A stretch of 64,000 nt of DNA from Coprinellus micaceus (lineage: Eukaryota > Basidiomycota > Agaricomycetes > Agaricales > Psathyrellaceae), in the NCBI GenBank assembly GCA_951394405.1, contig OX596341.1, positions 124,001-188,000 on the forward strand, read 5' to 3'. The notes under the pieces are model-generated. The model was not told the DNA's origin and ran no database searches. It saw only the letters and a program-made list of their open reading frames with translations. Shown piece after piece: positions 40,370 through 64,000 of the stretch. The first letter of the stretch is position 1; each line of letters begins with the position of its first letter. Position numbers and translations under genes: made by a program.

Positions 40370-40576
40370 GATCCTGAGGAGGGCGCAAGCGAAAAAACGG
40401 AGAAGCGATGATATATGAGGGGGGGAAGACAGAGGCACGAAACGGGCCTGAGTCAATCTGTGGATCCCCGGTTAACCTCATCCCGTCATCGCAGTAATGT
40501 CTGTGGAACCGATCCTCCCGATTTGGCACCTAGGTCACCTGAGCTGGCCGGCTCTAAGCCGGGCCCAGCTCGCCTC

Positions 40577-40663
40577 AGCTCTCCGGCTTAGAGCCGGCCA
40601 GCTTGGCAGGGAGCTGGGCTGGGCTGGGCCATGGCTCAGCTAATCGGGGTCCTCAGCTGAGCC
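40577..40663 (+). repeat. Left terminal inverted repeat (87 bp)
   Basis: Begins AGCTCTCCGGCTTAGAGCC and ends CCTCAGCTGAGCC; no mismatch to the reverse complement of 58,693-58,779. Its outer 19 bp (40,584-40,602) is mirrored again just outside at 40,543-40,561, so the left terminus can fold back on itself. Confidence 0.9.
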
Positions 40664-40859
40664 GATCAGTCAAGCTCAGCCAAATTTCTCCAAGCTCAGC
40701 TCATCAATTCTGAGCTGAGCGTCCTGCAGAAGAGCTCAGCCAACAGTGGAAACTGACATGGGCTGAGCTCCAAGCTGAAGAGCCCTCAGCTGTGCTCAGC
40801 TCAGCTGGGGCCACCCCAGCTTGTTGGGTAGGGGTGTCTGGGGTCCCGATCACTTTGAC

Positions 40860-41390
40860 CTGGCTCAGCTGTACGCGTTGTATAGCTGAGCTGTATGTGC
40901 CTTGCAGCTGAGCTCCACGACGCGTATAGCTGAGCTCCCCGACATGTATAGCTCAGCTCCACAATGCATATAGCTGAGCTCCCCGACACGTATAGCTCAG
41001 CTCCACGATGCGTATAGGTGAGCTCCCCGACCCGTATAGCTCAGCTCCCCGACACGTATAGCTCAGCTCCACGATGCGTATAGCTGAGCTCCCCGACACG
41101 TATAGCTCAGCTCCACGATGCATATAGCTGAGCTCCCCAACCCGTATAGCTGAGCTCCCCGACACGTATAGCTCAGCTCCCCGACACGTATAGCTCAGCT
41201 CCACGATGCGTATAGCTGAGCTCCCCGACACGTATAGCTGAGCTCCCCGACACGTATAGCTCAGCTCTACATGCCTCCCAGCTGAGCTCTACACCCCCCA
41301 TACAGCTGAGCTCTGCAGTGTGTGGCTGAGCTCCAGTATGCCTGTACGGCTGAGCTCAACGACATGTATAACTGAGCCCAGTCCCACATA
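40860..41390. repeat. Left subterminal tandem array (22-24 bp units)
   Basis: About 17-18 imperfect units of the type GAGCTCC(C/A)CGAC(A/G)CGTATAGCT, most regular at 40,908-41,270, in which nearly every unit ends in AGCTGAGCT or AGCTCAGCT. The interval 40,664-40,860 has the same AGCT words without a fixed period. Likely transposase binding sites (inference). The minus-strand open frames here are products of the repeat and are not genes. Confidence 0.75.
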
Positions 41391-41747
41391 TGACCCATGT
41401 ATCACCAATCTACCTAACTATCTGGTCCCTTACATGCATATTAGTACAGGACATCTCAATCTACCTTCTGGTGGGCATTCGCCATAGAGTTATAAGTAGA
41501 TATATTCGAGTACGACAAGGACCCCATCAATGGTGGAACACGAATGATTTTCTTACTGATGAATGAACAAACAGGCCATTAATTGGCAAAGGTTAACAAA
41601 CAGACAACCCAACTATATACAGGGCAGAGGTCCCAAAGCAGACATTGATATAGACAAGTAAGGATTAGCTAGAACAATAAATAAAGAGCCGGACATATGC
41701 AACAGGGTGTAAATGAGGAAATTGAAAACAATAGCGGGCTGACAAAA

Positions 41748-42650
41748 TCAATCCTCCTCCTCCTCCTCCTCCTCCTCATCAGCTTTGCCACCATCCAAGC
41801 CACCCTTCTGCCCAGCGGACACTTTACGTTGGTCTAAGAATCGGTTCAAGGTAGATGTGTCCACAATGGTTGGTGCCCTGAAGAGGGCAGCAACATCACG
41901 TTGAAGTTCGGAGCGCTTGCGGGCGATTAACAACGGCTTGTTAGTGCGACCAATCACCACCTCCGTGGCTGAACCAGCCTTGTTAAGAGCAACGTTGAGG
42001 GTATCACCCACCATTTTGTAGGTATTCATGGGCTTGGTGGACGAAATCACGACCGGCACAGTCTTGTAGCGAGGGTCAGACGCGAGGAGTTTGGCATTAT
42101 CTGAACGGAAACTACTTAGAATGGACGGGACAGAAAACAATGAACTGCTCACCTTCCGTCCACCTTTCCATCCGAATCCGAGTCCCATTGCGACGGAACT
42201 GTTCAAGGAAATGGTCTGTCTTTGTGACTGCCCACTTGTTGGGGTCCCACGAGTCAGTCCCGACCTCCAACGCAATGTCACTTGGACAGTAGAATACGAG
42301 CTTATGGGTAACGAGTTGGTTGCAGAAGTTGAGACGCCAGATACCTGGCGGCGGTTTTGCCTGGTTTTGCTTGTCCGCTGAATGATTGTTAGCTGTGAAA
42401 GATTACACCAAGGTACAGGTCAATGTACCCAAGATACCACGGAGAATCATGCGACAGACAGCGCGGTCTTGCCTGACTGTGATCCGCGCAACTTCGGGGG
42501 GAAGATCATTTTTATCGGCGTGATACTTCTCCGCCAGCCCACGAAAGTCGGAGATGCACTCCACGCCACAGGGTTCCTTCTCAGTTTTGACCTTGGTCTG
42601 TGGGGGCAACTTGCTGTTACGCTTTGCTTCACATGTCTTATAGTATGATA
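41748..42650 (-). CDS. Transposon cargo gene 1, acidic C-terminus, unknown
   Basis: Three exons inferred: ~42,650-42,429, 42377-42153, 42100-41748, phases agreeing. Readable product ~265 residues: KVKTEKEPCGVECISDFRG, then AVCRMILRGIL, a middle part rich in aromatic residues (GIWRLNFCNQL, DSWDPNKWAVTK), KTVPVVISSTKP, and a run of eight or more Glu/Asp at the C-terminus. I find no in-frame ATG at the 5' side; the frame stays open upstream to a TGA near 42,768 but reads as A+T-rich non-coding DNA. The first exon may start further up, or the gene may be truncated. No family recognised. Confidence 0.5.
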
Positions 42651-42659
42651 TTATTTTTA

Positions 42660-43121
42660 TCTTTCGTCGAGGACTTATTCTTTTTCTTTCGGCAAACTCT
42701 TTTGTATTATTATTTGTGTTTTTGGTTAAGTAGTTGACTCTCGTTGACTTGTTATGACGTTTATTGAGTCACCTTATTTATGACTCATATTCGACTCATA
42801 CTTAGTTTGCTCCAACTAAGTATGACTAGTCTCTGACTGTAATCGACTCATAGTTATATTGACTTATAGTTTATAGTGACTCATAGCGACTAGTATCCAT
42901 GGGTATATAAACCCTTTAGATTAGACCCATGTACTTTAGCTTGTTATACTTTTCCCCCGTTATTCAATAGTGCCTTGTGCCAAAATCCAAAGACAACTAA
43001 GAACAAGCCAATTAAGCCAATAAGACAACGACCAACGCCTTGAGTCCAAGTGAGCTATCGTCAACATAGTTCTTGGTAGTATCAGATACAACGATCGTCA
43101 ACATCGTACTCGATACCTAAG
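42660..43121. promoter_or_regulatory. A+T-rich interval with repeated GACTCAT words and a TATA box
   Basis: Between the two minus-strand cargo genes. Six or more copies of (T/C)GACT(C/T)AT or GAGTCA occur at 42,765-42,890, a palindrome ACTTAGTTTG...CAACTAAG at ~42,808-42,830, and GGGTATATAAACCC at ~42,901-42,914. It reads as a promoter for cargo gene 1, though it also resembles LTR U3 sequence. I could not define LTR ends with a target duplication. Confidence 0.4.
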
Positions 43122-46100
43122 CTAAGTGATCATTATATCATTGACCATTGACCTGCCCAGAGTCGACCAATTGTCGGACACTTGTCCAACTCCCTCATCG
43201 AGGTCGTAACACTTGCTGGTCTTCTGGGAAGGAGGAGAACTGGGACTCATGTTGCCGGTGAGGATCCCTAAGAACTGTGCAAAAGACACATCTTCGGGGG
43301 ATATGGCTCCCAACTTGAACATCCTGTACATTCATATCAGAAATCTAGAGATGAAGGACGCGGCTAGGATATACTCACTCGGTAAACATGATGAAGTTGT
43401 TGATAAACCCTCGTGCATCACCATCGGTTTCGTTGAGGAAATCCATTAAGGCGGGATCCCCAGTGACAAACTGAGACGATCCGCGAAGGCCAGTTTCAGC
43501 GCTGTATACGAGGGTCAGGATGTCGACAGGCCCGTTGTTGCGAATATTTGTCGCCTAGGGTCCAAGTATCAGTGGATGTGAATTCAGAAAGGCAGCATGC
43601 GATAACGTACAAGATCTTCCTGCTGCTTCAATACTTTGTCGAAGTAGACCAGCGCCTCAGCCTGGAGAGCGTCCGGCGGCAGCACGTCATCGTCACCCAC
43701 CCGAATTAGGGCATCCTTCCACTGCTGCTTCTGCAGCTCCCAAGCCTCTTCTCCCTCCTCAAGACATTTGGTCTTGATGTTCTGGTAAAGCTCAGAGGTC
43801 ACCCTGTTATACGATTCAAAGGGAGCCACTTCAGTCCCAAGTGAATAACATATAAAAAGGGCGAGCAGGGAAGTCAAACTCACGAGGTCCTGAAGTCTCT
43901 TTCGCCATCTTAACGTACTGCTTGTAAATGTTGTAGGGATTCTCCCAGCTGTAGGTAATAGAAAGGTCGAGTTTCTTGAGGATGGTGTGCAACGGCAAGC
44001 GGGTCGCACCGAGCAGGTCCTTGAGGAGTGTCCCAACGTTTTGGAGAAGATCAATGTTCTCCGCCGTCCAGATCTCCTCCGCCCTGGAGGTTGACGAGGC
44101 AGCGTTGAGGTGTTCTCTCTGTTTACCCTTGTCCACCTTCGCTGGCTGTACCCCTCCTTCATCCTTGCCCTTTGTCCGGGACTTGGCCTCAGCCTCCCGT
44201 CCACTATCCTCCTCCAGGTCAGGACTTTTCCTATCCTTCCGACCCTTCGCTTCCTCACGAATGCAGCAGTCATCAGCAACTTTCTTCTTCCGCTGCTCCT
44301 CGTGGACGCGACGACCCTCGTCCTCCTTCTCCTTCAACTTCAGCTGATGGCGAACACGCCAATCCTCTTCCTCCTTCTCCTTCCGCCTTTGCTCGTGACG
44401 AATACACTGTTCCTGTTCCTGTTCCTCCTTCCACCTCTGCTCGTGGTGGGCACGCCGTTCCTCATCATCCTTCTCCTTCCTCTGTTTGTGACGGACACAC
44501 CGCTCTTCCTCCTCCTTCTCCCTCTTCCTCTGTTCGTGACGGACACGTCGCTCCTCCTCCTCCTTCTCCCTCTTCCTCCGTTTGTGATGAACACATCGCT
44601 CTTCCTCCTCCTTCTCCCTCTTCCTCTGTTCGTAACGGACATGTCGCTCTTCCTCCTCATCCCCGTTCCCTTTCCGGACGTCACGGGAGCGATACTCTTC
44701 GTCCTCCCTCTCTTTTCTCATCTGCTCCTTCTTGCACTCGCGCTGTCCTCGCTCCTCCTCAGCTTCCTGAACCATTAACTTCGCCACCAGCTCGTCCCGT
44801 CGGCACCGAGCCACAGATTCTTTCGACGCCATCTTCATGGTGTTGAGAGGCTTGGGGTCGTTGTGATCCTCCGAGTCAGGGGCATTACCCCTTGTGTTGA
44901 TCCTCCTTCCTATTTGGAAACGCGCGCTAAGGTCGACAGGGTTCTTCCCCTCGTGCCCTTTCAGGTTCTCAGCGGTGTCCCTTCCCCCGATCTTCTGCCC
45001 CCGATCGAGGTCATCCTCCCAGTCCTCGTCTTCCCAGTAGTCCTGGTCCTGCAGCCCGTGCTCCCCATGCCGCTCCAGGTACTCGGCCTCGGCATCGCGG
45101 TGCCAAGCATACATCGCCGCCTCGTCATACAGATTGAACATGGGGATTTCGTCCTGCAGGAGGTCGATGTCGATGTCCATGCCATCTGACTCTTCGCCAT
45201 TTGATCTATCCTTCTCAGCAATGGGCGAGTGAACTCTTGCGCGCTTGCTGACACATCTGCGATGGTACGGGGTCTGCTCGCCTTCGCTGATTGGGTCATG
45301 TTCCGGGGATGCACAGAGTGGCGCAGCATCCGGTTTGTGCTTTCCATTGAAAACATTCCCTTGGCTGGAACGGGAGGCGGAGGAGACGGCGTCGACGGAC
45401 GACGGGCGATGTCGCTGTGTGAAGGGCGGGCGCTGGGTAGCAGGGGGAGAGGTAAGACGCTCAGGCAATTCGAAACTATCGTCATCGATTTCATGAGGTA
45501 TGAGTCGGCCGGGGCAGTACGTTGTGTGATCGATATCTTGAGGCAACGATGCCAACTCACACGTATGAATAGTTATGGAAGGGACGTTGGCGATGTTGTA
45601 CTTGTCCATAACAGCTTCGAACCATGGAGAGAGGGACCTTTGACCGAATTTGAGGGCGTCTAGTAGATGGTCATAGGGGAGGTGTTCGTACACCTCCTTG
45701 ATGTGAAATCCTTCGGGGAGCTTCACCCAGAGGATGTCACCCTTCGGCTGAATGTATGAGACGTAGCTCCCAACGCCAGAGTCCTTGAAGCCTTCAGGCT
45801 TACGGCGAATGTACCCACAGCCGGTATGGCGATCAGTCTGAGGGGCGCCTAAGTAAGAACACTGCCACCCCGCTTGCCAGATAATCATGACATCTTCATT
45901 AGGGACGTCCTCCGGGTTGGGATACGGGTACTCATAGAGGTGGTGGATCGGAGCTGTTTCGGGGGTGAGGCCTTCCCGGTCATCCACAGCTTTGGCGTTC
46001 AAATTGACAAGGGTGGCTGGTACGGGAGCGCATGGAATAGGAACCCAAGCCAGCGGCTTCCAAGGGGGTCGGACGGGCTTTGAAGTACCCTTGGCGACGT

Positions 46101-47733
46101 TCGGCGTGATCTTAGCAAGCTTTGGTGTGGCCTTGCCTTGGATGGGGGACAAAGGATGACCTTTGGGGCTGCGCAGAGCATCAGCATGAGTGCGAGAAAC
46201 CGTGGTGCAAGGCTCGTACCTTGCGTAAGGGGGGTTGGGAAGATGATACTCCTCATCCCCATCTTTGACCCCCAGTCCGGAGAACACGTCACTAAGTAGA
46301 AACATTAGATGTTAAGGCCAACGGCAAGGACAGAGACCGCCCGTACGTTATCCCAGAAATGCCCCGACGTGCCGTTCCTCCACCATTTCCCAAGTGCGCC
46401 TCCGTCGCTTTCTTGCCGGGATTGGCCTGTCCAACTTAATTGGCATACATGGCTCTGTAGAGGGAAAACGAACTTACCCCTCTGGCGTTGGCGTTGGCTT
46501 TCTTGGGCACTGGCTTCCCCTCACCCTTGTCTCGGGTCTGGTCGGTTTCGGCCGCAGGGGGTGGAGCCTACCGCGTAGAAGTCAGCAAGCAGTTTCAATG
46601 ATCCACGCAACAGTACCTACCACAACCTTTGCGAACCCTCTCCTCGATCTAACCCTCTCGGCGATGGAATTGCCCTTAATCCCCATGCCGTCTTCGTTGT
46701 CGCTCCCCTCGGCTTCACTGTTGCTGTCTCCCCCGGAATCTTCAGCACTGTATGAAATGAGTAAAGGCTAAAGATAGTAGGGCAGAGAAAGGCAGATAGA
46801 AAGTCAACGGCAAAGAGTCGAGTTGGCATGGATAAACCACCGACAATGAGTCAAGGTGGAGGGTAAACGAGCCCTGACAAGGAGTCAAAGGGTCGGCGAT
46901 GAGGAAAGGATGTGTGAGGGATTGGAGGACGGAAAGAAATATAACGGAAAGGAAGGAGGAGGCAGTGGACTCACCTAGCCGTGGAGTAAGTGACTATAGG
47001 GCTGGAGGCCCGGGCCGCAATACGAGTGAGCTGGGGCCTGTAGTATATAGGGTCAGTCGACGAACAAGGGAGGGAGAACACGTGGGGCAAACCAACAACA
47101 AGGAGTCAAGTTGGTCGAAGAACCCACAGACAAGGAGTCAATGTGGGGCGTTAAAGGCGCTGACAATGAGTCAAAGCGCTCAGTGACGAGGGGGGATGTG
47201 GATGAAATGCAGTGTATCAAAGGGGGTGGAACATGGTATGGTGACGGACAATGGACTTACCTAGTGTCGGCGACTTTGGCGGCGCACTTCGGGAGGTTCC
47301 TCAGGGTTCTGGTCTGGATGGGGCGACGTGTCTGTGAGTTTCGGGCTAAAAGAAATAGTGAGGCGAACTCACCTGGGGCAAATCAGCCTCGGGGTCGCTG
47401 TCGCCCCCTCCGATGTACTTCTTCCTGGTAGCTTGGGGGAGACGAGGGACGGAGACATATGGCACAAGTATCGGCTTGTACCGGGCCTGTGACGAGGGAG
47501 TAAGTGACGAACGTCTTACAAAGTGCAGAGAAAACTCCACTCACCTTCCTCGGAGACGGAACTTCGTTCCCAATGTTCTTGGGGGAGGCGCTCTGAAGGG
47601 TCACCACATAAACGGCTTAGACAAGGCAAGGCGGTGAGGAAACACATACCTCGGCGGCAGGAGGGGTCTTGGGCGGAGGGGATGAAGGACGGCGGCCCTT
47701 CAAGTTGTTCTTCTTCTTGGACTTGCTGGGCAT
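43122..47733 (-). CDS. Transposon cargo gene 2, 12-exon coiled-coil protein
   Basis: Exons inferred: 47733-47650, 47592-47545, 47486-47373, 47331-47261, 47037-46975, 46747-46621, 46567-46478, 46426-46347, 46291-43884, 43828-43611, 43554-43379, 43323-43122; total 3,681 nt, 1,226 residues, every junction in phase. Start is MPSKSKKKNNLKGRRP, strongly basic. Residues ~30-330 are low-complexity and charged; then a folded-looking segment (DVMIIWQAGWQCSYLG, GDILWVKLPEGFHIKEVYEH); then a Ser/Asp/Glu-rich region; then about seven tandem 15-19 residue Arg/Glu/Lys units (RKREKEEEERCVRH-type, 44,340-44,690) that should form a long coiled coil; and a C-terminal helical domain (KTKCLEEGEEAWELQKQQ, GPVDILTLVYSAETGL). 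I do not recognise a family. It probably binds nucleic acid or the element's other proteins (guess from basic and coiled-coil content). Several introns carry the GACAAGGAGTCAA hairpins. Confidence 0.7.
46805..47180. repeat. Cluster of core-loop hairpins, inside introns of cargo gene 2
   Basis: Copies of core GACAA(G/T)GAGTCAA at 46,842, 46,876, 47,097 (first base A), 47,129 and 47,162, plus a variant (GGCAAAGAGTCGA) at 46,809. Each is flanked at once by a 4-6 bp inverted repeat of different sequence: CAAC, CCACC, CCCT, CCAAC, CCCACA, GCGCT and their complements. All lie in inferred introns (46,748-46,974 and 47,038-47,260). Confidence 0.8.
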
Positions 47734-50700
47734 TGTATGGATATATGTAACTAATTCTACGAGTATACGAGAGGGTGAAGGATGAAAGTGGGAGGCAGAA
47801 AATGACGGAACAAATCCCTTTAAAAGGTGAGAAAAAAAAAGGGGGCGCAAACAACTCGCATGTCCAAGATCCGGCAAAGAACAACGGCACATCACACGCG
47901 CTGCGGGCGGGCCCGACCAATGCGCCCCCCGCAGGACACAGACACGGCCCTATCGTGACGAATATACGTGTGCCTAGTATACTCGGGTCAGCGATTCCGA
48001 CACTAGAACACAATGCAAACAAGGACTGACCTGTCAAACTCTCGTCGAGACTTTGTAGCCGGAAATGTTTGTGCACGGTATGATCTACCCAACGGCGCGA
48101 CTCCCGCCACGGTACATTTGACTCGGTTGAGGATTCCCGCCGTAAGAGAAAGAAGCACCATGGGCGAATAAGTAATTGAGGCTAAGGATACGGTGCCCCA
48201 TGTGGGCGCTACCCAACAAACGGCGACTTAAGCGCCGGTCAAGCGAGTAGAATGATCGCCACTACATAACGCATCACACCGTCTCAACACGACGGCGCAT
48301 TGGCATTGCCTGTGACGTTTGGCGGGAAGGCAATTTAGGGGAAAGTCCTGAAGGGCGAAGCGGTGAGTTACGAAGCCTCGGAATAAGTAAAAGGTTGCCT
48401 ACCGGGAAGTCATGAAGACGTCTTCAGAAGATGGTCCTGAGACGCCAAATGGTGGACTTATACTCCACTTACGATGTCGGTTGTCGGGTGTCGGCGTCGG
48501 TTGTCGTGCCGTCCATGGAAAGCAGCGGTAGGGGTCGACGAGATTCCGGGCGTCCAGTCCAGCGATGCAATCCTAAAGAAAGGTAAGTCGTTTGCTTCGA
48601 GTTCGATATGTCGATTACTCCTCCAGCTCACCTTCCGTCTATGGCATCGGTCATTAGAAGACCTTGGACTCGTCGGATGAGGTCTGTGTGGGGCGTCGAG
48701 TCGGAGGAGGGAGGCGGGGAACAGGTGAACAGGAGCACAAATAGAATACACAGTATCGTAGCGGCGCGGCTCGGCAGCGCCAGTCCCCGACTCACGAAGT
48801 TGATATTTGAACAAAGCACTGGCAGCTCTTTTCCCGGAGCGAAGGAATCTAGGGTCGTCCCGCAGAAGTGTACCTTCAAATGTCTTCAACGTTCGCGTTC
48901 TTGAAATCAACAGAACCGGTCAGACTTAGGTGAGGGAAGGTCCCCTCGACTGAACGCGAAGGGAAGGGGTGCGTCAGTCGCGAGTCGGTACGTGCGGTAG
49001 AAACCTTTGCCTTCAGAAACTGCATATCATCTTCAATTTGTCCCACTCATTCTGCATATTCGTGTTCTGTACACCAACAGAAACACATATTCCCCAGTCT
49101 TTTTTTTACATCAGAGATCCGTAGATACAGTTATTCGAATTTGGATGGCCTGTCTCAGTCCCCATCCCACACAACACCACGAGTGCGTCGCTTCGATCCG
49201 CAACAAGTTATCACAGTAACCATCGTCTGAGAAGAGAACGCCCCGAGTGGAGGATCTCGTCCGGCGAAAGATATCTGAAAGGCGTCACCATCTCGGGCAT
49301 AGGGATATCTTGGGTTTAGCATGTGGGGTCGTAGAAGGTTGGATATTGCTCAAAGTCGTGAGGCTGCCAAGTAAGAGAGGGCAGTCCAGGGTCCTCCTGA
49401 TAAAGGACACGGGTGACGTGCGAAGGTCGTTTCAACAGGAGAAACATGAAGACGAAGGAAGGGGACGGTGTCAAAAGGGGCGACGGGACAGAGAACTTCG
49501 GGGGGATACGCAGCACGGGGAGTGGAGGGAGCGGGGGTTGAGAATGAAGACTGACGCCATTTGCTCCGCAGGAGATAAGATGAGATGAGATGTGACAACG
49601 TTCTCACGGCCTGTAGTTCAAGTGACGGACGAGCATAGACCGTTTCCTGGGTACAGAACCCTCCCCCACTTTGTGGAGTCGGGGATTGATGCAAGCGAGC
49701 GTTCCATGGAGATCGTCTTGCGTGTCGTGAATGTGAGGCGAGAGGGTGATTTGGCCTGACGATGGGGTCGAGAAATCTGGGAATCTTCGAGGGATGTGCA
49801 GCGAGGTATGGGCACTGGTGTTTCGGCACGTGCGAGACATGGAACCCCAGTTAAGTGGTCGTACGTCTACAAGTGGGAAGATGGATTGAAGAGGAAACTG
49901 AGACTCTAACGGACGGCCCGGGTGGTTGGAGATATTGAGGGGCTAGAAGATGAGAGGTAAGTGCTCGGTGACGTATTCGAGCGAAGCGTTTGACTTACCT
50001 ACCGCAGTAGACATACTATCCACCCTCGGACCGGCGTCTCCAAACCCCATCGCACGGCAAGTCGATTCGGTTGTCATTTATCGAGGCGCGGCGACGATAT
50101 GCCCGCTCTTGCTCCTGGGTGTCGGAATCGGGGCCTTGAGTCGCGGTATCCCAAGGTTCCCTGTGGCGTTCGGCACGAGTGTTGAGGCAATGTCATGTAG
50201 ATGCTAGGGGGACCTGGAGGGAGGGTGAGTTTGTTTGTATCTGCGAGTGCGATCCGACGGGCTACTGACCTCGTGTCCGGGTCCCACTCGCTCACTCTGT
50301 CAGTAGAGGAGGTCTTTGAGGTCGTTGGTCGGCTGGTGGCCATCGTACAAACCCCCTGGTACGACAATGCGAGATCCTCGTCTCCTGACGGCGCGACTCC
50401 ATGCTGCCTGTCTGATACGAGTCGCAAGGTGTACATAGTTGATCCATACATGTGCGATCCTAGCGGAAGCGATCCCTGGTGGGGAATCAACTATGACTAG
50501 GACAGGGATGCCAGCGATGTTGATGTGCGTCGCCTGTCCTAGGGGTAAGCTCCCCTGCGTTTTGTAAAATGACTCAAGAATGAGCTGAAACATTGGTAAG
50601 TAAGGTCAGTATTGAGCTAGTGGTGCCATAGCGCCGTGGCAGCAATTGACACGTACGCACGTTCAAAGGGCGAGGAGCCGCACACTTTGGGCGCTTAATC

Positions 50701-50884
50701 TCCGGACCCCTATTGAGGTGGGCGACGGTGGAGGTCCCCGAAGCGATGCCCTACCCAGATTTGCGCACTGGGGTTGCGGAGACATCTCCTGCCATAGAGA
50801 TGCCCGTTGAGAGACTGGACCCCCCCAGGGAGTCAGACTTCAGCCATCGTCAGTTTCCCAACCAGCGTAGCACGCCAGAGATCT
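47734..50884. other. Central part of the transposon: coding-like fragments, no complete gene
   Basis: A minus-strand frame at 48,458-48,910 (no ATG; begins with a TLKTFEGTLLRDDPRF-like stretch) and one at 50,300-50,593 look coding but cannot be joined into a gene. The words ACTTAAGCGCC (~48,228) and GGGCGCTTAA (50,690) recall the promoter motif of the F-box pair. No RNA gene seen. Confidence 0.35.
50300..50593 (-). CDS. Hypothetical fragment in transposon centre
   Basis: 97 residues from the ATG at 50,593. The first half (IAGIPVLVIVDSPPGIAS, then RIAHVWINYVHLATRI) has a regular strand-helix texture; the end is basic and probably reads into an intron (GTTTGTAC at ~50,360). No family recognised. 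It may be one exon of a larger or broken cargo gene. Confidence 0.3.
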   Translation of the reverse strand: MFQLILESFYKTQGSLPLGQATHINIAGIPVLVIVDSPPGIASARIAHVWINYVHLATRIRQAAWSRAVRRRGSRIVVPGGLYDGHQPTNDLKDLLY

Positions 50885-51503
50885 GCAGGCGATGACAAGG
50901 AGTCAAACCGTCTGGAAAAGGAACCGACAAGGAGTCAAGGTTCCTGGAAAGACGAGGCGACAAGGAGTCAAGCCTCGGTGCAAGAGAGGGGATGGGGAAT
51001 AAAAGGGGAAAGGGGGAAAAAGAAGCGGCAAATTCGACTTACCTCTGGACCTCCGCCAAATGTCGTGCACAACGTGGTGTTGGGGAGAAGAGAAGGGGAT
51101 GTGGGGGTTGGAGGGAATAAACGAGTGTGTGGGTGGGAGCGAAGAGTGGGGAAGGGAGGTGGGGGATAAGAAGAACCCAAGCCAAACGAATGGGCTTTGG
51201 GCGGAGAGATGATGTGTGATAAGATGGGCGCCATTTCCATCTCGGTCTCAACATGGGTCACGCGCAGAGCGGACTTCGAACTGACTTGTCGCTTGTCTCC
51301 TGCCAACCATCATCCTCACTCACCGACTGGGCTCCCGCTCTCCCCTCGACAGGTAAGTGTTTCGTTTTTGATTTACTTTTACCTACCTTTTCAACCCCAC
51401 TCCTCCATCGCATGGGACTTGACTCCTTGTCGTCCCTTTTCTAACGGATTTGACTCCTTGTCATCTGTTCTTCGGGCCAGGCTTGACTCATTGTCGCCTG
51501 CCC
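50885..51503. repeat. Second cluster of core-loop hairpins, upstream of cargo gene 3
   Basis: Core on the plus strand at 50,894 (imperfect 8-bp arms), 50,926 (AGGAACC arms, 7 bp) and 50,959 (CGAGGC arms, 6 bp); core on the minus strand at 51,419 (GGGAC arms), 51,450 (AACGGAT arms, one mismatch) and 51,483 (CAGGC arms). Arms differ at every site while the 13-nt core does not, apart from the same G/T choice at its sixth base. Confidence 0.8.
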
Positions 51504-51771
51504 ACCCCTTACTCTTGCCAGTCGGAAGGAGGATCGAAACGCTGCCCGCTCGAGCAGCCAAGGCTCGAGCTTCCATCCTCCTCCACCGTCTCGTCGTCCC
51601 TCGATTTGGTACGTCGCTTCGAGTCGCATCGGCTGACATCCCGTTTCTGACTCCTTGATAGCTGTACGCCCGCCTTCCCGTTATTGGCCAGTCTGCTAGG
51701 GCGTACCGCGGTCGAGGTGAGTCGTTACCCCACTCACCATCTTCGCTGTCCTTATACCCTACAGACCGACG

Positions 51772-54507
51772 ATGTCTTCGGAGGAAGGATTGCCCAAGCT
51801 GGAAGTGGAGTATGGCAAGGATGGGGTGCCCACACTCTGCTTCAACGAGATGTTGGACGACTGTAAGTCGTCTCTTTCTGGGTCTACCTTCACCGCTCAC
51901 AGACCAACAGACAAGCTCTATCGGGCGAAGGATGTCCTTTCATACTACGTCCTCGAATGGCCCATCCAATACGACAAAAACCTCGACAAAGCTGGCCTGC
52001 CCGTATATTCGCCTGAAGAGTTCAACCGCTACAAGGGTCTGAAGGCTTACTGGCTGGTCACCTCGCCGAACTACCGAGGGATATACAAGCCAGGCCTCGG
52101 GATCCGGAACTTGCGTGCGAAGTCGAACGGGTGCTATGGCCTAGACGATCGGATGTTACACCCCCAGCTCGTTTCAAAGGGGTTCGAGTGGGCGGTGTGC
52201 ATCCCTAGGAAGACCGACATGTTCCCCGGACTGTGGTGGCGGCCCACGTTAGACGACTCTGTCGTCCTCCAGAGCGGAATTATCATCACGACAACACGCT
52301 ACTTAAAGAAAGGAGCCTACGTGATCCTCGAGGTGGAACTCAACCACGCCACCGACATGGCCTTCTCCACCCTCGCCAAGTTCCCGAAAGCTACCCTCCT
52401 CGGCTCCCTCGTCACCCATGCCAAGCAGTGCCTCGAGCGCCTGGAGGCGTACGGCCTCACACACGTCGACATCCTCGTCACCGTAGGCGACTTCCAGCGC
52501 TCTTGCCTCGATATACACGGCATCGTCGGCTACATGATAATATACTACCCTCGATCTTTCCCCCTTTCCAAAGAAAAGAACATTACTTGGCCCTGCGACA
52601 CCAGTATCATGGGCGGTTTCACTCAAAGCCGCAAAGAGGCCCAGTTCCTCCATGCGATCGGCATCCCCGTCTGGTGGATTCGCCCCCAATGGTCCTTCAA
52701 CCCCCACAACACCGCCGTCCTCGCCGGTTCCCAGTGCCACACTCTCCTTGTCGGCGAGGATGTTGTCATGACGGAGTACACTCAGTTTGGTACCCAGGAC
52801 AAGGTCTTTCATGAGATCTACAGAGGCCTTCCCAGTACCCAACTGCAGATGATGACCCAACGCCTTGGCTGCCACGTCTTCGATCTTGTCGAACCCTCCA
52901 AAATCGCTTGGCAGAACCTCAACAAGAAATTGACCAAGAATGCTGACCCCACCTGCCCAATTCAACCTGGTATGTCCCTTCTCAGCCTCTCGTCCATCCG
53001 GTGTACTTACCTATATACTCTAGTCCACCTCTTCTGTCTTCCCGGGTTCAAGGAACATTCCCCCTCCGAATTCCCTTCCTCCCAGCCGAACGCAACACAC
53101 TCGAATTCTTCCAACGTTCCCAGCACTTCGTCTTCGCCGACCTCCGCCGCCCCCAGCATCTCATCAATTCCCCCTGAACGGTCGACTACTCCAATGCCTG
53201 CTCCGTTGACGTCATCTCACTCCCAGGCCTCGTCGATTGCTGTCGGCAGTCGGACTCACAGGAACTTTGGGCCTGACCCAATGCCTTCAGAACTCGACAA
53301 GCGTCCCCCCGAGATTGAATCCTTTGCTGAGGGTGTCAGCACTCTCACTGTTCGCAAGCGACCCGCAATCAAAGACACCATGTACCTGACGTATTACACC
53401 CCCGACCCCAGCTTCATTTTGGGCGCCGAGGAGGAGAACGAGGTTTTTTACGTTGCCACCTGGATCGTCACCCGAAACGTGCATATGTACAACGTCGCGA
53501 ACGGCATCGTCACCGAGGAGATTACGAAACAGCAATGGCGCCAATTCCTCAAGTCCATCCTCAAGCATATTGCCCCCACCTCAAAGACCTCTCTGGAACT
53601 GGGCGATAACGACCACGAGGGACCTTCCTCTGCCTCCTCGGTTCAGCGAAACACATCGTCGTCGCCTTCTTCCACCATCCATTCCAACCAGCCGATCGCC
53701 TCGTCGTCGCGGTCCACTCACTCTGCTCGTCCCTCGCACCCGCCTTCTCCTGCTGTGCCAGCTCCGAGTGGCATTCATGGCCTTCCCCCCAGGCCCGTGA
53801 AGCGCCGGACTAAACCTCAACCTCCGACTTATGTCAAGCGCCACAAGAAGAGCTCCTGCCTAGAGAGTCTACCCGTTCGATCCGGAACCCTCGAGAAGAT
53901 CCTGTACTTCGAGCAGGTGATCATGCTGGGGTTGGAGGAGGACCTTCGAAAGGCGATTACGCCAGCCGTAACTGTGGAAGTTATCTGGGAGCTTCGAGAG
54001 AATACCTGGCACCTTGAGCTAATGGCTCTCGATCAGGCTCTCGCCCCCGATTTCTGGCCCCCGGCTGGCGATGATCTGGTCGATTCAAGTGGGGCCCGTC
54101 ATACTCGCCTTCAGCGCGAGACGGTTCTCCGTCAAGTTTTTCCTGCTCGTGATGGGGATGAACTGGGCGAGATTTTCATCACCGAGATCCCGATCGTCGA
54201 CAAGGGCCTTGCATCATACCACTGGTCGAATCGTCACGGCTACCTGCTGGCCTTGCGGGAGCTGATGCTGTCATGGCATAAATGCCCTGAGACCATCGTC
54301 AACGCCGACATCGCTCGCATTGAGCTCCCATCCAGGAGGTTGGAACGGCTGCTCGTCAAGTTCTACTGCGAGTCGTTCTTTGACACGTTCGGTCGGGCCC
54401 CCATTGTCCCTTGTCGCCTTCCTCATTGTGCTCGCATTCGTGAAGTCCCTGTTCGGTCATTCGGCTCCCTCACATGTAAGCCCTTATTTACTACCCTTGC
54501 CGCCTGA
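51772..54507 (+). CDS. Transposon cargo gene 3, unknown
   Basis: ATG at 51,772 just after a CCTACAG acceptor, so a 5'-UTR intron is likely. Two in-frame introns can be removed: 51,863-51,910 (48 nt) and 52,970-53,023 (54 nt); both are multiples of three and free of stops. The spliced product is ~875 residues. N-terminal ~380 residues are compact and rich in aromatic residues (YYVLEWPIQYDKNL, NYRGIYKPGLGIRNL, MFPGLWW, ILVTVGDFQRSCLDI, GIPVWWIRPQWSF); then a Ser/Pro-rich linker; an acidic-aromatic segment near 53,380-53,560; a second linker with a basic patch; and a C-terminal helical domain (53,880-54,480). Near its end a GTAAGC donor and further small exon-like pieces continue to ~54,640, so the 3' end is uncertain. 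Similar proteins occur near mobile elements in Agaricomycetes as far as I recall; function unknown. Confidence 0.65.
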   Translation: MSSEEGLPKLEVEYGKDGVPTLCFNEMLDDCKSSLSGSTFTAHRPTDKLYRAKDVLSYYVLEWPIQYDKNLDKAGLPVYSPEEFNRYKGLKAYWLVTSPNYRGIYKPGLGIRNLRAKSNGCYGLDDRMLHPQLVSKGFEWAVCIPRKTDMFPGLWWRPTLDDSVVLQSGIIITTTRYLKKGAYVILEVELNHATDMAFSTLAKFPKATLLGSLVTHAKQCLERLEAYGLTHVDILVTVGDFQRSCLDIHGIVGYMIIYYPRSFPLSKEKNITWPCDTSIMGGFTQSRKEAQFLHAIGIPVWWIRPQWSFNPHNTAVLAGSQCHTLLVGEDVVMTEYTQFGTQDKVFHEIYRGLPSTQLQMMTQRLGCHVFDLVEPSKIAWQNLNKKLTKNADPTCPIQPGMSLLSLSSIRCTYLYTLVHLFCLPGFKEHSPSEFPSSQPNATHSNSSNVPSTSSSPTSAAPSISSIPPERSTTPMPAPLTSSHSQASSIAVGSRTHRNFGPDPMPSELDKRPPEIESFAEGVSTLTVRKRPAIKDTMYLTYYTPDPSFILGAEEENEVFYVATWIVTRNVHMYNVANGIVTEEITKQQWRQFLKSILKHIAPTSKTSLELGDNDHEGPSSASSVQRNTSSSPSSTIHSNQPIASSSRSTHSARPSHPPSPAVPAPSGIHGLPPRPVKRRTKPQPPTYVKRHKKSSCLESLPVRSGTLEKILYFEQVIMLGLEEDLRKAITPAVTVEVIWELRENTWHLELMALDQALAPDFWPPAGDDLVDSSGARHTRLQRETVLRQVFPARDGDELGEIFITEIPIVDKGLASYHWSNRHGYLLALRELMLSWHKCPETIVNADIARIELPSRRLERLLVKFYCESFFDTFGRAPIVPCRLPHCARIREVPVRSFGSLTCKPLFTTLAA

Positions 54508-54852
54508 TCAGACTGACCAGGAGCACCCCTAGAATTCTTGTCATCTCACCCCTCATCGTATTCCATGTAAGCCCTGCTTAACAGCTATTCAATGCGAAAC
54601 ACATGAACTGATATTTCCCCCTTTAGCAGTATCTCTTGTCACTGCTTTCATACGTCGCATCCCTGTAAGTCTTGCTTATCTCTCCCTCAATTGTTCCGGT
54701 GTTAACTCGGTACATCCTTCCTTAACCAACAGCCTTTGTACTACCATTACTCCGTTTAAATTACTTGATCTGTGATATTCCGATGTTTGCCCTAGATTCG
54801 CTCCGATAAGAATCGATATGTCCATCTGTGGTTTGTCTTTCCCCCATTGACA

Positions 54853-57800
54853 ATGTCCTTCAAGGCCCCTCGTGCCCCACGCCTAGCTGTGTCCATGCCC
54901 CTGCGTCGAAAGTGGGCTCCGGCTCAGGAGGGTCAAATCAAGGTACCAAGAGGGTTGAAGCGGAGAGGAGTTACCTTACGCCCTCAAGTGGATGTCAGGG
55001 TGGCAGGTGTGGGCTACGTGCAGCGGCGAAAACGACAAGTGGGGCCATCGGGTGTTCATCGCGCCCCTGTGAAGACCTCTTCCTCTCCTCAAAAGGGAGA
55101 CAAGCGATTAATCGAGTGGAACCGATGGAGGGAGCTCATTCCCCAACTCATACCCACCTACATGCAGGTACTCCAACAATCAAACAATTTACGATCGATT
55201 CGTCGAGACAACCCACAGCCCTGTGCATGCGCAAGCCGGCGCAGCCTTCGTGTCACCGTTTACAGTTTCGATGGTACGTCCCGTTTCTTTACGTCCTTCG
55301 GAGGCCAAATTATTAAGTGTCTCATAGGCGCAAGGGACATCGCCGTGTGTCCGTGCTGCCCAGGAGTGGCTCTTTTGCTCAATGGTTACTTCCCTTCTGC
55401 CCCATTGCGACCATCTGTTGCGTTCGATATCGCCATGCTGGAGTTCGCCCGAGAACTCTACCTTCGGTCTTCTCCCAATCGGTCTGTGTTTGCAGCTGCG
55501 CTGGAGTCTTACCTGCAAGGCCTCGGATATCCTATCCCTGGTGTCGAGCGAACTCGCCGCAAGCTCGCGAAAGCTTGTCGTTACTATGCCCTTCTGCTAG
55601 TGGAAGTCGATACCTTCCCCCGGAGGCGGGTGGCTCTTTTGTGTTCGGTTGACGGTCAAGCAGATGCAGAGGATTGGGAAGATGATGACGGTATTGAGGA
55701 GTCACTCACCGATTACCTGAGGTCCTGCTGTCCTCTATGTTTTGGTGCTGTTGCAGAACATGACGACCTCGCCCCGTGAGTCAAATGCTGGATATGTAAT
55801 ATTTATTAGAACACTTACTCTCGTTCCCAGTGCCGACATTATTGTGTGCCTGGACGCTTGCTTCACGCAGAAACGGAGGACTCCGGCGCGTGGGTCAGGG
55901 CGTGATCCACCGTTTCGCCATCCACGTTCTGTTTTTCTCACAGAGGAGGAGCTACGTGAAGCTAAGCATCTAGTGGAATTGGCTCGTCCACCTCCCGCTC
56001 CAGCTCCGACGGGGACCGCTGGTGACGTGGTCGAAAAGGGCATGAAGGTCCCCATCTCGGTTTTGGATGCATGTTCAAATTCGTTCAAAGCCGCTGACGA
56101 GAACCGTAACAAGGCAAGTCCGACCTTCTTCTCGGATACTGGACTTATGGCCTTGTTATGTCGCCACGATCGTGTCTTGTGGCTCGCGAACATCACGACA
56201 CCTGGAGAACAGCAATTCTACGTGATTGCACTGATCCTGAAGTTATTCAAGTCTATCCCCCGCCATATGACAGTTGGCATTCTGTACGACATAGGATGCC
56301 AACTTCACCGCAGTTGCGTGAAGTGGGACTTCATCCCTGACTTCATCGACCGAATAATATGGGGAATATCTGTGTTCCACGCCTATGGTCACCAATGGCC
56401 ATGTCAATTGGTTTACCATCCGCGGAAGTGTATCGGGTTTGGGCTGTCGGATGGTGAGGGGTGCGAGCGATTCTGGAGTAGCATCCAGGGCCTAATTCCC
56501 TCCCTCCGGGTCTCCGGCGTATGTATATTTATATGTCCTTTGGTCAACTTGTTTGCTGATTTTCGTTGCAGTATCATCAGTGTATCTTTACCTTAGATCT
56601 TCAAATCAAGTTCCTCCAGGACGATGGTCTCACCGATATTGCCAGGTGGTTAGCAAGAAAATGGAATACCTGTCAGTGCAAGAAATCCGATGCACAACGT
56701 ATTATAGATGAGTCCGGCCTGGCCATGGAAGATCTGGAGGATCTATGGGAGGATCAAGTCAGGGTGCAGACCCGACCATTGGTGGCTGCAAGCGGTGGAC
56801 TTGCGAAAGCAGCGATCAAGTTGGTGCTAGAATTGACGGAGTACCAGAGGTCAATCACGAAGGAGGTTGATGGCCTTGACCATCTTGTGAAGGCTGGTGA
56901 TGTGGATGTAGGGGATGCAGCTGAGCGGCGTGCAGTCCTTGTAGGAAAGCTGGCTGATGTGGCGGCGCAGATCAGACGAAAAAGGGGGGAGTTGGGGGTA
57001 AGCGAGAGGGCGAACCTGAAGCAAATGGAATCAAGTCAATACCTTAAAGTACGTCGTCTCATGGGTATGTCCTGTAACCTGTTACATATAACTAACCATT
57101 CCCTTAGCTTCGGATGCAAGCGAGGGCCCTCAAGGACCGTCTGCAGGCCAGGCTTCGAGACCACAAGTTCGAGCTGGAAAGATTCAACAGGGTTTATTCT
57201 CAATCCACAGCATCAGGTACTTTCCTTGAAATAGATGCATTTTTTCCATGTCTTATGCCTCCAATAGAACGCCGTTTGACCGACCATGTCAAATCTCAGG
57301 TCTCATGGCATGAGCCGACTGTTGTTAAGATTGCCCAACGCTTCAATAAGCTTGTGGACGACATGGCAGACCTAATTCGCAAACGCCAGGCTCCCCGGCA
57401 TGCCATCACTCCCAAACGTATTGATCAGGCTACCCTCTTCTCATTGGGTGTCAACGACCCTATCTGGAATGACTGCGGCCTTGAAGAATCCGACTCGGAG
57501 GTGCCTCGATGGCTTGGTGATGATGAAGTGCAAGATGGCATTGCGGCGATGCTGAATTTGAACCGCTGTGAAGAAGAGGAATGCTATCTCATACGTGAAG
57601 CTATGCTCCTTCAATCGTGGTACACAGTTGAATGGGAGCAGCTTAACCACGCCATTCTCCAGTCTGATGGTTAGTTCATCTTATGCTTGCCTCGTACTGG
57701 TGCTTACATGCCAACAGGCGGCTTCTGCCACTATCTAGAACAGAAACATGGGCGCTTAGTGTATCTGGGTGCTCTTTGGCATGAGGTGTTGGAGGAGACA

Positions 57801-58064
57801 GTCCTTGGGGATGAACTGGGTGGATGGGGGCCATCTGAACAGGACTTTGGGTCTGTACTTGCGGCATTCGCAGGTCAACAGGGCACAGCAAGGTCTACAG
57901 CAGATTCTGAGTCTAAGGTATCCGATGTTTTTGAGGAGGAAGAGGATGTTCTGTGGGAGATGGAAGAATTGCAATTGGGGGGGCGTAGCTCGCCATACCA
58001 TAGTGAGAGTGACAGCGGTGAAAGCACTCTTCATCCTCCGGCAAAGAGAAAGCGCCCCTCTTGA
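54853..58064 (+). CDS. KDZ-family transposase
   Basis: Seven exons inferred: 54853-55273, 55328-55775, 55831-56518, 56572-57048, 57108-57216, 57268-57669, 57718-58064; 2,892 nt, 963 residues, all phases agree. The ATG at 54,853 was chosen over an in-frame TTG. Domains: a basic N-terminus; a Cys-rich segment (CACASRR, VCPCCPG, LRSCCPLCF) matching the CxC clusters of fungal KDZ transposases; the RNase H-like DDE core with IIVCLDACFTQKR (first Asp, ~residue 297), MALLCRHDRVLWL (second Asp, ~400), YDIGCQLHRSCVKW, HAYGHQWPCQLVYHPRKC and SDGEGCERFW (Glu, ~498); then a long helical C-terminus with an acidic tail. It would cut the element at the terminal inverted repeats and reinsert it. No stop or frameshift in the exons, so it may still be active. 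Introns 1 and 5 (54 and 51 nt) are in frame and stop-free. Confidence 0.9.
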
Positions 58065-58199
58065 TACTCGTACTATACATGAGCTTGTAACACATGGGGG
58101 CTGTCAATGGTGTTGACTTTTCATTTAATTCTGTATTTACATTGATTTACATGAATGATGTCCTTGCTAGTGTACTAATTCTAGCCCGAGCACTTGCAG

Positions 58200-58692
58200 G
58201 TTTGAGCCAGGCATCTATTGGAGCTGAGCTGGAGAATGAACGGGCTGAGCTCGTTTCTCTCAGTGAGCTGAGCTAGAGCGTGAACGGGCTGAGCTCGTTT
58301 CTCTCGGCGAGCTGAGCTCGAGCATGAACGGGCTGAGCTCGTTTCTCTCCGTGAGCTGAGCTCGAGCATGAATGGGCTGAGCTCGTTTCTCTCAGCGAGC
58401 TGAGCTCGAGCATGAACGGGCTGAGCTCATTTCTTTTGGTGGGCTGAGCTCGTAAAGGTGAGCTCAGCCGCATGTACCACCATCGAGCTCAGCCCTGTTG
58501 GGTAGGTAGGACCCCAGACACCTCTGGGTATGAGAGCTGAGCTGGTCTTCCAACATCCAGCTCGGCTGAGCTCCCCTGGTCAGCTGGGTGCACATAGCTC
58601 AGCAAGCTGGGTGTACCCCAGCTCAGCTGAGGTGGGGTCAGCTTAGCTGAGGTACATCCAGCTTAGCTGGTGAAGACTCAGCTTTGGGGTGG
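58200..58692. repeat. Right subterminal array (~44-bp units and AGCTGAGCT words)
   Basis: About five units of ~44 bp (GGGCTGAGCTCGTTTCTCTC...GAGCTGAGCT, 58,230-58,450), followed by irregular AGCTCAGCTGAGG words up to the right terminal repeat. The unit differs from the left array but shares the AGCTGAGCT word. Minus-strand frames with repeated RNELSPF are artefacts of this array. Confidence 0.75.
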
Positions 58693-58779
58693 GGCTCAGC
58701 TGAGGACCCCGATTAGCTGAGCCATGGCCCAGCCCAGCCCAGCTCCCTGCCAAGCTGGCCGGCTCTAAGCCGGAGAGCT
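58693..58779 (-). repeat. Right terminal inverted repeat (87 bp)
   Basis: Exact reverse complement of 40,577-40,663. Only 13 bp (58,780-58,792) separate it from the Copia LTR. Confidence 0.9.
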
Positions 58780-58792
58780 TGTAGAAATCCGA

Positions 58793-59146
58793 TGTCTATT
58801 GGTCAATGGGTAAGTATCTCAGTCACCGTATAGTAGACTGTGAGTATGATACCTATTGGTCAATGGGTAAGTATCTAGGCAGGTATCGTCAGTAAGGTAG
58901 GTGTGCATAAGGTATAGTATGTGGCTCACCTCAGTCACCGTATAGTAGACTGAGGTGAGGGTAAGGTGGGTGTCCGTAATATATAAGGATAGGGTAAGGT
59001 GGGTGTCCGTAATATATAAGGATAGGGTAAGGTGGGTGTCCGTAATATATAAGGATAGGGTAACAAAGGTCTTTGGGAAAGGGAAAGGAAGGGGGCGGAC
59101 CCGGTGGCATCACATGCATTCACGGTGCAAGCCACATACTTCAACA
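58793..59146 (-). mobile_element. 3' LTR of the Copia element
   Basis: Reads TGTTGAAGTATG... on the minus strand, directly after a polypurine tract (GTGAGGAGGAG), and ends ...CAATAGACA; 354 bp with TG/CA ends. It contains a 24-nt word repeated at 58,796 and 58,853, a 22-nt word repeated at 58,818 and 58,930, the latter inside a perfect 12-bp stem (58,925-58,936 with 58,948-58,959), and three 33-bp tandem units. Layout and spacing match the solo LTR at 13,823-14,146. Confidence 0.8.
58961..59059. repeat. Three 33-bp tandem units in the LTR
   Basis: GTAAGGTGGGTGTCCGTAAT followed by ATATAAGGATAGG, three consecutive copies with no difference that I can see. Each carries a TATATAA-like core, so the LTR holds three candidate TATA elements. 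Confidence 0.85.
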
Positions 59147-59184
59147 CTCCTCCTCACCAGGAACGCGCTCCTCCTCGCATGGAA

Positions 59185-63918: not shown

Positions 63919-64000
63919 CAAAGGAGTTCAAGAGTCGAGAGGGTTATCAAAGGATGTAGGGCGCTTCACGTCGCGTTCGGGTAGTCGCTACGCCGCCAGA
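63919..64000 (-). other. Copia 5' leader (partial)
   Basis: Untranslated leader upstream of the Gag start. No tRNA primer-binding site could be assigned, and the 5' LTR is not in the window. Confidence 0.5.

Follow-up and report, generated by a model that had tools for sequence, protein, structure and literature searches.

What are two genes without a recognisable family doing inside an 18-kb KDZ transposon of Coprinellus micaceus, and why are short hairpin-forming sequences arrayed beside them? The element lies in a stretch of 64,000 nucleotides (nt), C8:124001-188000, called the window below, and carries a leftward gene A, a rightward gene B and a rightward transposase gene; it was compared with the whole genome (50.3 Mb in 17 contigs, to which C1 and similar handles refer). 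Our main result, which is well supported, is that the stems of the hairpins change their letters from site to site and yet stay paired, and that the hairpins are nearly confined to KDZ elements bearing A and B.

The hairpins are recognised by a 13-mer core, TTGACTCMTTGTC, of which the genome holds 39 exact copies (8 on C1, 8 on C3, 12 on C6, 10 on C8 and 1 on C9), and the reversed core, used as a control, has none. In or near loci with A or B lie 38 of the 39 copies, counting one at C6:75690, in unread sequence at a distance of 3.4 kb from a match to A. Only the copy at C9:2600326-2600338 is remote from all matches to A or B. A 12-mer was found at matching places in the window and C3 elements, and does not occur in 40 kb of the window outside. 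Each hairpin consists of a variable stem, a TT bulge, GAC, a five-base loop, GTC and the returning stem; the letters flanking the core vary between sites yet stay complementary, and the apical part is near-invariant.

This pairing exceeds what the controls give. The mean stem length in 29 distinct sites is 4.55 bp; re-dealing the sides lowers it to 1.24 bp (maximum 2.41 bp in 5000 re-deals), and slid registers give at most 1.90 bp. For the 11 sites of the window, 93.9% of the cells are paired against 67.2% after shuffling, and covariation is 0.737 against 0.220; none of 500 shuffles reaches either value, and slid registers give a covariation of at most 0.176. The larger set of 33 sites, which includes decayed copies on C6 where several stems are only 0-3 bp, still has 88.6% paired cells against 65.4%, and a covariation of 0.583 against 0.171 in shuffles. 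Within an array the sites are not simply duplicates of one another, because duplication would have carried the stems along. Outside the known arrays a covariance model gave weak matches only, in a stretch of C5 (L019, E 0.12) and at window position 48016 (E 0.91). A search of Rfam returned seven matches up to E 1, none above the gathering score and none on the hairpin arrays; weak microRNA matches at the element ends (40538-40647 and 58596-58674) were taken as chance.

Four predicted introns contain all 11 sites of the window, with TTGACTC always on the predicted sense strand. Two of the introns belong to gene A on the minus strand, namely intron 5 (46748..46974, 227 nt, cores at 46842-46854 and 46876-46888) and intron 4 (47038..47260, 223 nt, cores at 47097-47109 with one mismatch, 47129-47141 and 47162-47174), and they are long compared with the other nine introns upstream of a solo long terminal repeat (LTR) in that gene, which measure 51-59 nt. 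The third lies in a leftward transcript (50883..51042, minus strand, cores at 50894-50906, 50926-50938 and 50959-50971), and the fourth is the predicted 5' intron of gene B (51353..51521, plus strand, cores at 51419-51431, 51450-51462 and 51483-51495), both splice sites of which are kept in the C3 element. When folded as RNA, the two arrays beside B give z-scores of -5.2 and -4.9 in the sense direction against -2.6 and -2.6 in the antisense direction. The hairpins are at least 6 kb from either terminus of the element.

Related arrays with other loops stand before B in more distant elements. The search for loops other than that of the core above was limited to the sequence before B and to three KDZ loci that lack B. 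At the C6:2.41M element, whose B is 32-33% identical, three hairpins precede B, with the core TCGACTCGCTGGTC and variants of it (array at C6:2.414M). Five cores of the form TA-GAYCYCGYGTC stand before B at C2:5.309M, the two that were measured having stems of 9-10 bp, and two hairpins with 12-bp stems around GC-GATCTCGCGTC precede B at C11:190.7k. In all, arrays or cores are found before B at nine loci (C8, C1, C3, C6:20.7k, C6:57.2k, C6:2.41M, C5, C2 and C11); of the other four of the 13 B loci, two lack the 5' part of B (C1:580.9k and C6:42.9k) and in two it was not located (C1:5227k and C12). A hairpin detector found no array at three KDZ neighbourhoods without B (on C10, on C9 and at a TET-bearing KDZ locus at C8:1.64M), nor at C12 and C1:5229k, where the 5' end of B was not located. 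Shuffled KDZ stretches gave 0-1 pairs with this detector. It also reported one pair in L003, within the palindromic end of a short relative of the element, and one in the 40 kb of the window left of the element, six shuffles of which gave 0-3. In the C5 stretch L019, positions of about 1-980 are a poly-A-tailed insertion, perhaps a non-LTR retroelement, that ends just before the hairpin cores.

The three genes occur together elsewhere in the genome. Elements at C1:582131-598354 and C3:4840872-4857065 carry A on the minus strand and B and the transposase on the plus strand in the same order as in the window, and they match each other from terminus to terminus with 99.6% identity over 16,224 columns (35 mismatches and 30 gap positions), so that the whole three-gene unit has moved. 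A decayed set of A, B and transposase is present at C6:15.8-29.9k. The 23 matches to gene B were grouped into 13 loci, and at 12 of these transposase sequence lies directly downstream of B on the same strand, even where identity has fallen to 29-37%; the locus without an adjoining transposase, C6:57.7k, is within a scrambled region. The genome-wide profile search scores the best candidates only, and the counts of KDZ, TET/JBP and B matches are therefore lower bounds: at least 107 KDZ-domain matches form 63 clusters. B is present in nine of these, TET/JBP lies within 20 kb of 22, and no cluster has both, no Tet_JBP match being found within 20 kb of the nine B-bearing clusters. These arrangements support the view that, in this genome, A and B belong to a single KDZ lineage and are mobilised together with it. 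An earlier note on this DNA, made from its letters alone, had regarded such genes as passengers, a description not supported for a set recurring at C1 and C3; its statement that they are not of the TET/JBP type agrees with the 63 clusters, and the co-occurrence with KDZ transposases that it proposed to look for was found at the 12 B loci mentioned.

Some further observations concern these loci. Genome-wide there are 31 Tet_JBP matches, 28 of them above the cut-off and many near KDZ genes, and the genome thus also hosts TET-bearing KDZ elements. Within C6:10-90 kb, near the contig end, decayed pieces of A, B and transposase are clustered in scrambled order. At C1:576610-598354 a complete KDZ element adjoins an inverted and truncated relative inside its gene B; given that there is no target duplication, the junction is perhaps a rearrangement and not a simple insertion.

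Besides the transposase the element has two genes, and not three as the note had counted, since what had seemed separate genes to the left is gene A split by the solo LTR; that no family can be assigned to them still holds. Upstream of the solo LTR, gene A (41748..47733, minus strand) has 12 predicted exons coding for 1190 amino acids without a stop; its 3' part ends at 41748. A protein of 1503 amino acids from Coprinellus micaceus (P0009) matches it on both sides of the LTR junction, which shows that both pieces on the minus strand belong to a single gene that is now interrupted. Its coding region at 44316-44712 is a highly charged tandem repeat. Gene B (51772..54522, plus strand) is predicted to have three coding exons (51772-51862, 51911-52969 and 53024-54474) with the stop completed at 54521-54522, giving 867 amino acids; without the last splice an in-frame stop is met at 54507. 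The named relatives of A and B come only from Coprinellus, Candolleomyces and Ephemerocybe, all Psathyrellaceae, and one further match (P0011) has no name. The profile searches and structure predictions that the note had recommended for the cargo proteins did not yield a family: sequence profiles of Pfam, NCBIfam and PDB gave no credible match for A or B, with two sub-threshold Pfam matches on their relatives, and the mean predicted local distance difference test score (pLDDT) was 42.2 for gene B (window frame, alignment A1) and 51.6 for P0010, a relative of gene A (alignment A3), too low for a comparison of folds. A possible resemblance of part of gene A to HMG boxes is not claimed here.

Comparison of the window and C3 copies indicates that gene B is clearly under purifying selection, to judge by ratios of nonsynonymous to synonymous substitution rates (dN/dS) of 0.153 in exon 2 and 0.202 in exon 3. 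The corresponding ratios are 0.29 and 0.17 for the large and the last exon of gene A, where dS is high, and 0.10 for exon 6 of the transposase, again with high dS, while dS is saturated in exon 3. Gene A diverges fastest, with 41% amino acid identity in its large exon. Gene B has a dS of only 0.58-0.60, whereas A and the transposase reach about 1.8 or more, and the block 50862-54480, from the left array to the end of B, is 79.6% identical at the nucleotide level between the window and C3 elements. This block is far closer to the C1 and C3 elements than are the flanking A and transposase, which suggests that arrays and B were perhaps swapped between elements as a module.

The element that carries these genes is a DNA transposon of the KDZ superfamily by every feature tested, as follows from the transposase domain, the termini, the target duplication, the sibling copies and the short relatives with similar ends. 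The transposase gene (54853..58064, plus strand) has seven exons (54853-55273, 55328-55775, 55831-56518, 56572-57048, 57108-57216, 57268-57669 and 57718-58064) with GT-AG introns and encodes 963 amino acids with no internal stop, in accordance with the note, which had called it apparently intact. The product matches the Pfam domains KDZ (PF18758, E 8.9e-58, residues 292-533), which is the catalytic domain, and CxC1 (PF18802, E 2.8e-8), a zinc-cluster domain that accompanies KDZ.

The boundaries were fixed by searching the genome for the terminus and reading its other copies, as the note had proposed, and by reading 3 kb past the window end on the right flank. The note had observed inverted arms of exactly 87 bp about 18 kb apart, and these are indeed present (40577-40663 and 58693-58779, 87/87 complementary, 18,029 nt apart). 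They are not the ends of the element, as it had assumed, since no target duplication adjoins them at 40577 or 58779 and the other genome copies of the terminus run on outward past the arm end. The arms are the inner part of a terminal inverted repeat (TIR) of 137 bp, alike between its copies at 137/137 positions. The left TIR (40527..40663, plus strand) opens the element at 40527 with CACCTAGG. The right TIR (minus strand) has its inner 87 bp at 58693..58779 and its outer 50 bp at C8:188469-188518, being interrupted at 58779/58780 by a Copia-type element; the right terminus is for this reason absent from the window and lies at C8:188518, equivalent to window position 64518 and 518 bp outside. 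The KDZ element thus occupies 40527..58779 within the window, left of the nested insertion, and resumes past the window. The duplication GATTTGG is found at the true ends only, at 40520..40526 (plus strand) and again right after the right terminus at C8:188519-188525. A 7-bp duplication, CCACTCA, flanks the C3 element, and the C1 sibling has none; the 7 bp of the window and C3 elements agree with the 7-8 bp usual for KDZ transposons. The TIR at 40527-40663 contains an imperfect palindrome, its positions 16-77 matching their own reverse strand. The AGCT-rich arrays that the note had placed inside both ends are there, with 22 bp x 16.5 on the left (40906..41267) and 44 bp x 5.3 on the right (58221..58452).

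Ten short relatives of 2526-3900 bp, read at both ends, share the terminus CACCTAG; target duplications are of 8 bp in four of them and of 7 bp in two, and four have none. This family of 2.5-3.9 kb has only the outermost 105 bp or so in common with the window element, and the exact hairpin core was found at none of its members; stretches of about 1.5 kb from within one end of six copies (L003-L008) also lack it. Two copies are 99.4% identical along 1.6 kb, from which it follows that something mobilised the short family recently. The note had held that a terminus bounding much shorter segments would speak against the element. Such segments do exist, but they look like non-autonomous kin and leave the status of the window element unaffected.

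Two LTR insertions postdate the window element. The Copia-type element in the right TIR (58780..64000, minus strand, leaving the window) has an RVT_2 domain (E 2e-48) and a 5-bp duplication, GAGCT. Its near LTR is at 58780-59146 (367 bp) and its far LTR at C8:188163-188463 (301 bp), with LTR pieces 99.5% and 97.6% alike; the two LTRs differ in few substitutions and in two copies of a 33-bp tandem unit. The solo LTR of 597 bp (42615..43211) sits in a coding exon of gene A between copies of CTTGC at 42610-42614 and 43212-43216. With these insertions, the recent mobility of this copy that the note had read from perfect ends and an undamaged transposase is not supported. Moreover, the C1 and C3 pair is young, at 99.6% identity overall, and yet the TIRs within each of these elements differ by 9-10%, so that TIR identity is no clock here.

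How the hairpins might work can be proposed with some reserve. The reading that we prefer, although we would give it somewhat less than an even chance, is a KDZ transposon of a B-bearing lineage whose hairpins would be recognised as structure and would serve self-control or escape from silencing. A, leftward, and B with the transposase, rightward, move as one unit, and a divergent promoter near 51.2 kb probably serves both sides. The hairpins, with their variable stem, TT bulge and GAC-N5-GTC apical part, would be read as structure, most likely in nascent A and B RNA, by a protein that the element itself encodes. Through such self-recognition the element might regulate its transcripts or evade silencing by the host, in the manner of VANC of the plant VANDAL transposons, with structured sites replacing plain DNA motifs; it is this analogy that suggests the purpose. 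RNA is favoured over DNA because of the predicted sense, the intron location and the folding of the sense strand beside B. The reader is perhaps B, on two indirect grounds: distant elements have arrays before B and no A match was found there, and arrays and B form one closer block between the window and C3 elements; A would be the second choice on account of its charged tandem-repeat region and its fast divergence. It is tempting to go further and to speculate that the protein, B or A, reads the intronic arrays with a loop specific to each lineage, and that loop and matching protein form a structure-based self/non-self code, serving autoregulation or escape from silencing and replacing the TET/JBP of sister elements, a possible extension that we nevertheless hold to be doubtful.

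Several points weigh against the preferred reading. Pairs changed on both sides are as frequent in shuffles (245 of 500 for the window set and 415 of 500 for the 33-site set), and further pair types stand out weakly or not at all (21 and 200 of 500 shuffles). Because the structure was drawn from the tested sites themselves, it has an advantage over the slid controls. Nor do the 33 sites count as independent observations, since sibling elements share their stems at corresponding sites. G-U pairs are about as frequent as A-C mismatches (4 against 3 in the window set, 9 against 11 in all), and the pairing is therefore no proof of RNA. Introns and transcript sense are predictions, and the acceptor of the leftward intron 50883..51042 is not seen in the C3 copy. 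The introns of A fold barely better than shuffles on either strand (z-scores of -1.8/-1.7 and -1.1/-1.2). The detector reported no array at C5, where only one of three cores has a good stem. Other loops were sought mainly before B, and the link to B hence partly reflects where the search was made; A, for its part, is perhaps too divergent to be matched at the distant B-bearing elements. The predicted structures of the B protein and of the relative of A are too uncertain to reveal a binding domain.

In an alternative reading the hairpins act as DNA, cruciform or single-stranded, at which the transposase or an accessory protein would dock or assemble, and the introns would simply offer non-coding room next to the divergent promoter. 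Bulged single-stranded hairpins serve in this way at integron attC sites and at the ends of IS200/IS605. The scarcity of G-U pairs (9 of 297 cells, with A-C mismatches about equal at 11), the symmetrical facing of the two arrays by the promoter region and the palindromic TIR are in line with it. However, arrays at least 6 kb from the termini, and lacking as exact cores from the short relatives, seem unneeded in cis for mobility; all hairpins follow the predicted sense of transcription, and beside B it is the sense RNA that folds more strongly relative to shuffles. We consider a role as DNA rather unlikely.

The intron location could also be explained without any reader encoded by the element, if this were an ordinary KDZ transposon with long-retained accessory genes in which tandem hairpins only aid splicing or transcription, for instance by shortening long introns, with host factors alone. 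In line with this, all 11 window sites are in predicted introns, and those of A are in its two long introns, of 223 and 227 nt, where the other nine upstream of the LTR have 51-59 nt. Splicing aids would have no need of a near-invariant apical sequence, however, nor would they account for a core nearly confined to A/B elements (38 of 39 copies) or for a loop that differs by element lineage, and this explanation appears unlikely. That A and B are host genes recently captured and carried as passengers is most improbable: they have no Pfam domain and, apart from one match without a name, their named relatives are all from Psathyrellaceae, which would suit a capture, but B stands directly upstream of same-strand transposase sequence at 12 of 13 loci in this genome, also at 29-37% identity.

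With respect to known systems, the excerpts consulted of a report on KDZ1-KDZ3 of Cryptococcus neoformans describe elements of about 9-11 kb with TIRs of 139-241 bp, duplications of 4-8 bp and mobility shown in the laboratory (PMC12810828). The window element resembles them in its transposase with KDZ and CxC1 domains and differs in its length of about 18 kb and its TIRs of 137 bp; no genes of the A/B type and no hairpin arrays are named for KDZ1-KDZ3 in those excerpts (PMC12810828). The TET-bearing Kyakuja and Zisupton elements of Agaricomycetes, according to the parts consulted of PMC12730594, have CA..TG ends and duplications of 7 bp (Kyakuja) or 8 bp (Zisupton). They too combine a KDZ transposase with an extra gene beside it, whereas the Kyakuja families described there lack TIRs and have a TET/JBP dioxygenase, unlike the window element with its TIRs and its A and B (PMC12730594).

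The closest functional parallel is VANDAL, a three-gene DNA transposon whose VANC motifs, in the sections consulted, are tandem, in the same orientation, lineage-specific, enriched in the elements, located in introns and upstream regions, and bound as plain double-stranded DNA (PMC5735166; PMC10398659). The window element likewise has three genes, and its arrays are lineage-specific and in the same orientation relative to the predicted transcripts (PMC5735166). The variable regions of VANC often hold tandem peptide repeats, with which the repeat region of gene A may be compared (PMC5735166; PMC10398659). In contrast to VANDAL, the array flanks form covarying stems and the transposase is KDZ and not of the MuDR type (PMC5735166). 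At most, the window element would work like VANDAL/VANC; it is not a member.

In the limited library searched, no description of such hairpin arrays or of A/B-type genes was found. KDZ elements are abundant in this genome, with 63 clusters, and are active in Cryptococcus (PMC12810828), and the non-transposase genes found discussed for them in the excerpts at hand are of the TET/JBP type only. A and B represent a second type of KDZ accessory gene, non-overlapping with TET/JBP in this genome and provided with a candidate hairpin target, so that self-recognition by a fungal transposon can be put to a direct test with a single protein and a 37-nt probe. Overall, the hairpin arrays point to an undescribed mode of transposon self-control, and if this is true, structured hairpins would join the known kinds of sites by which transposons recognise themselves.

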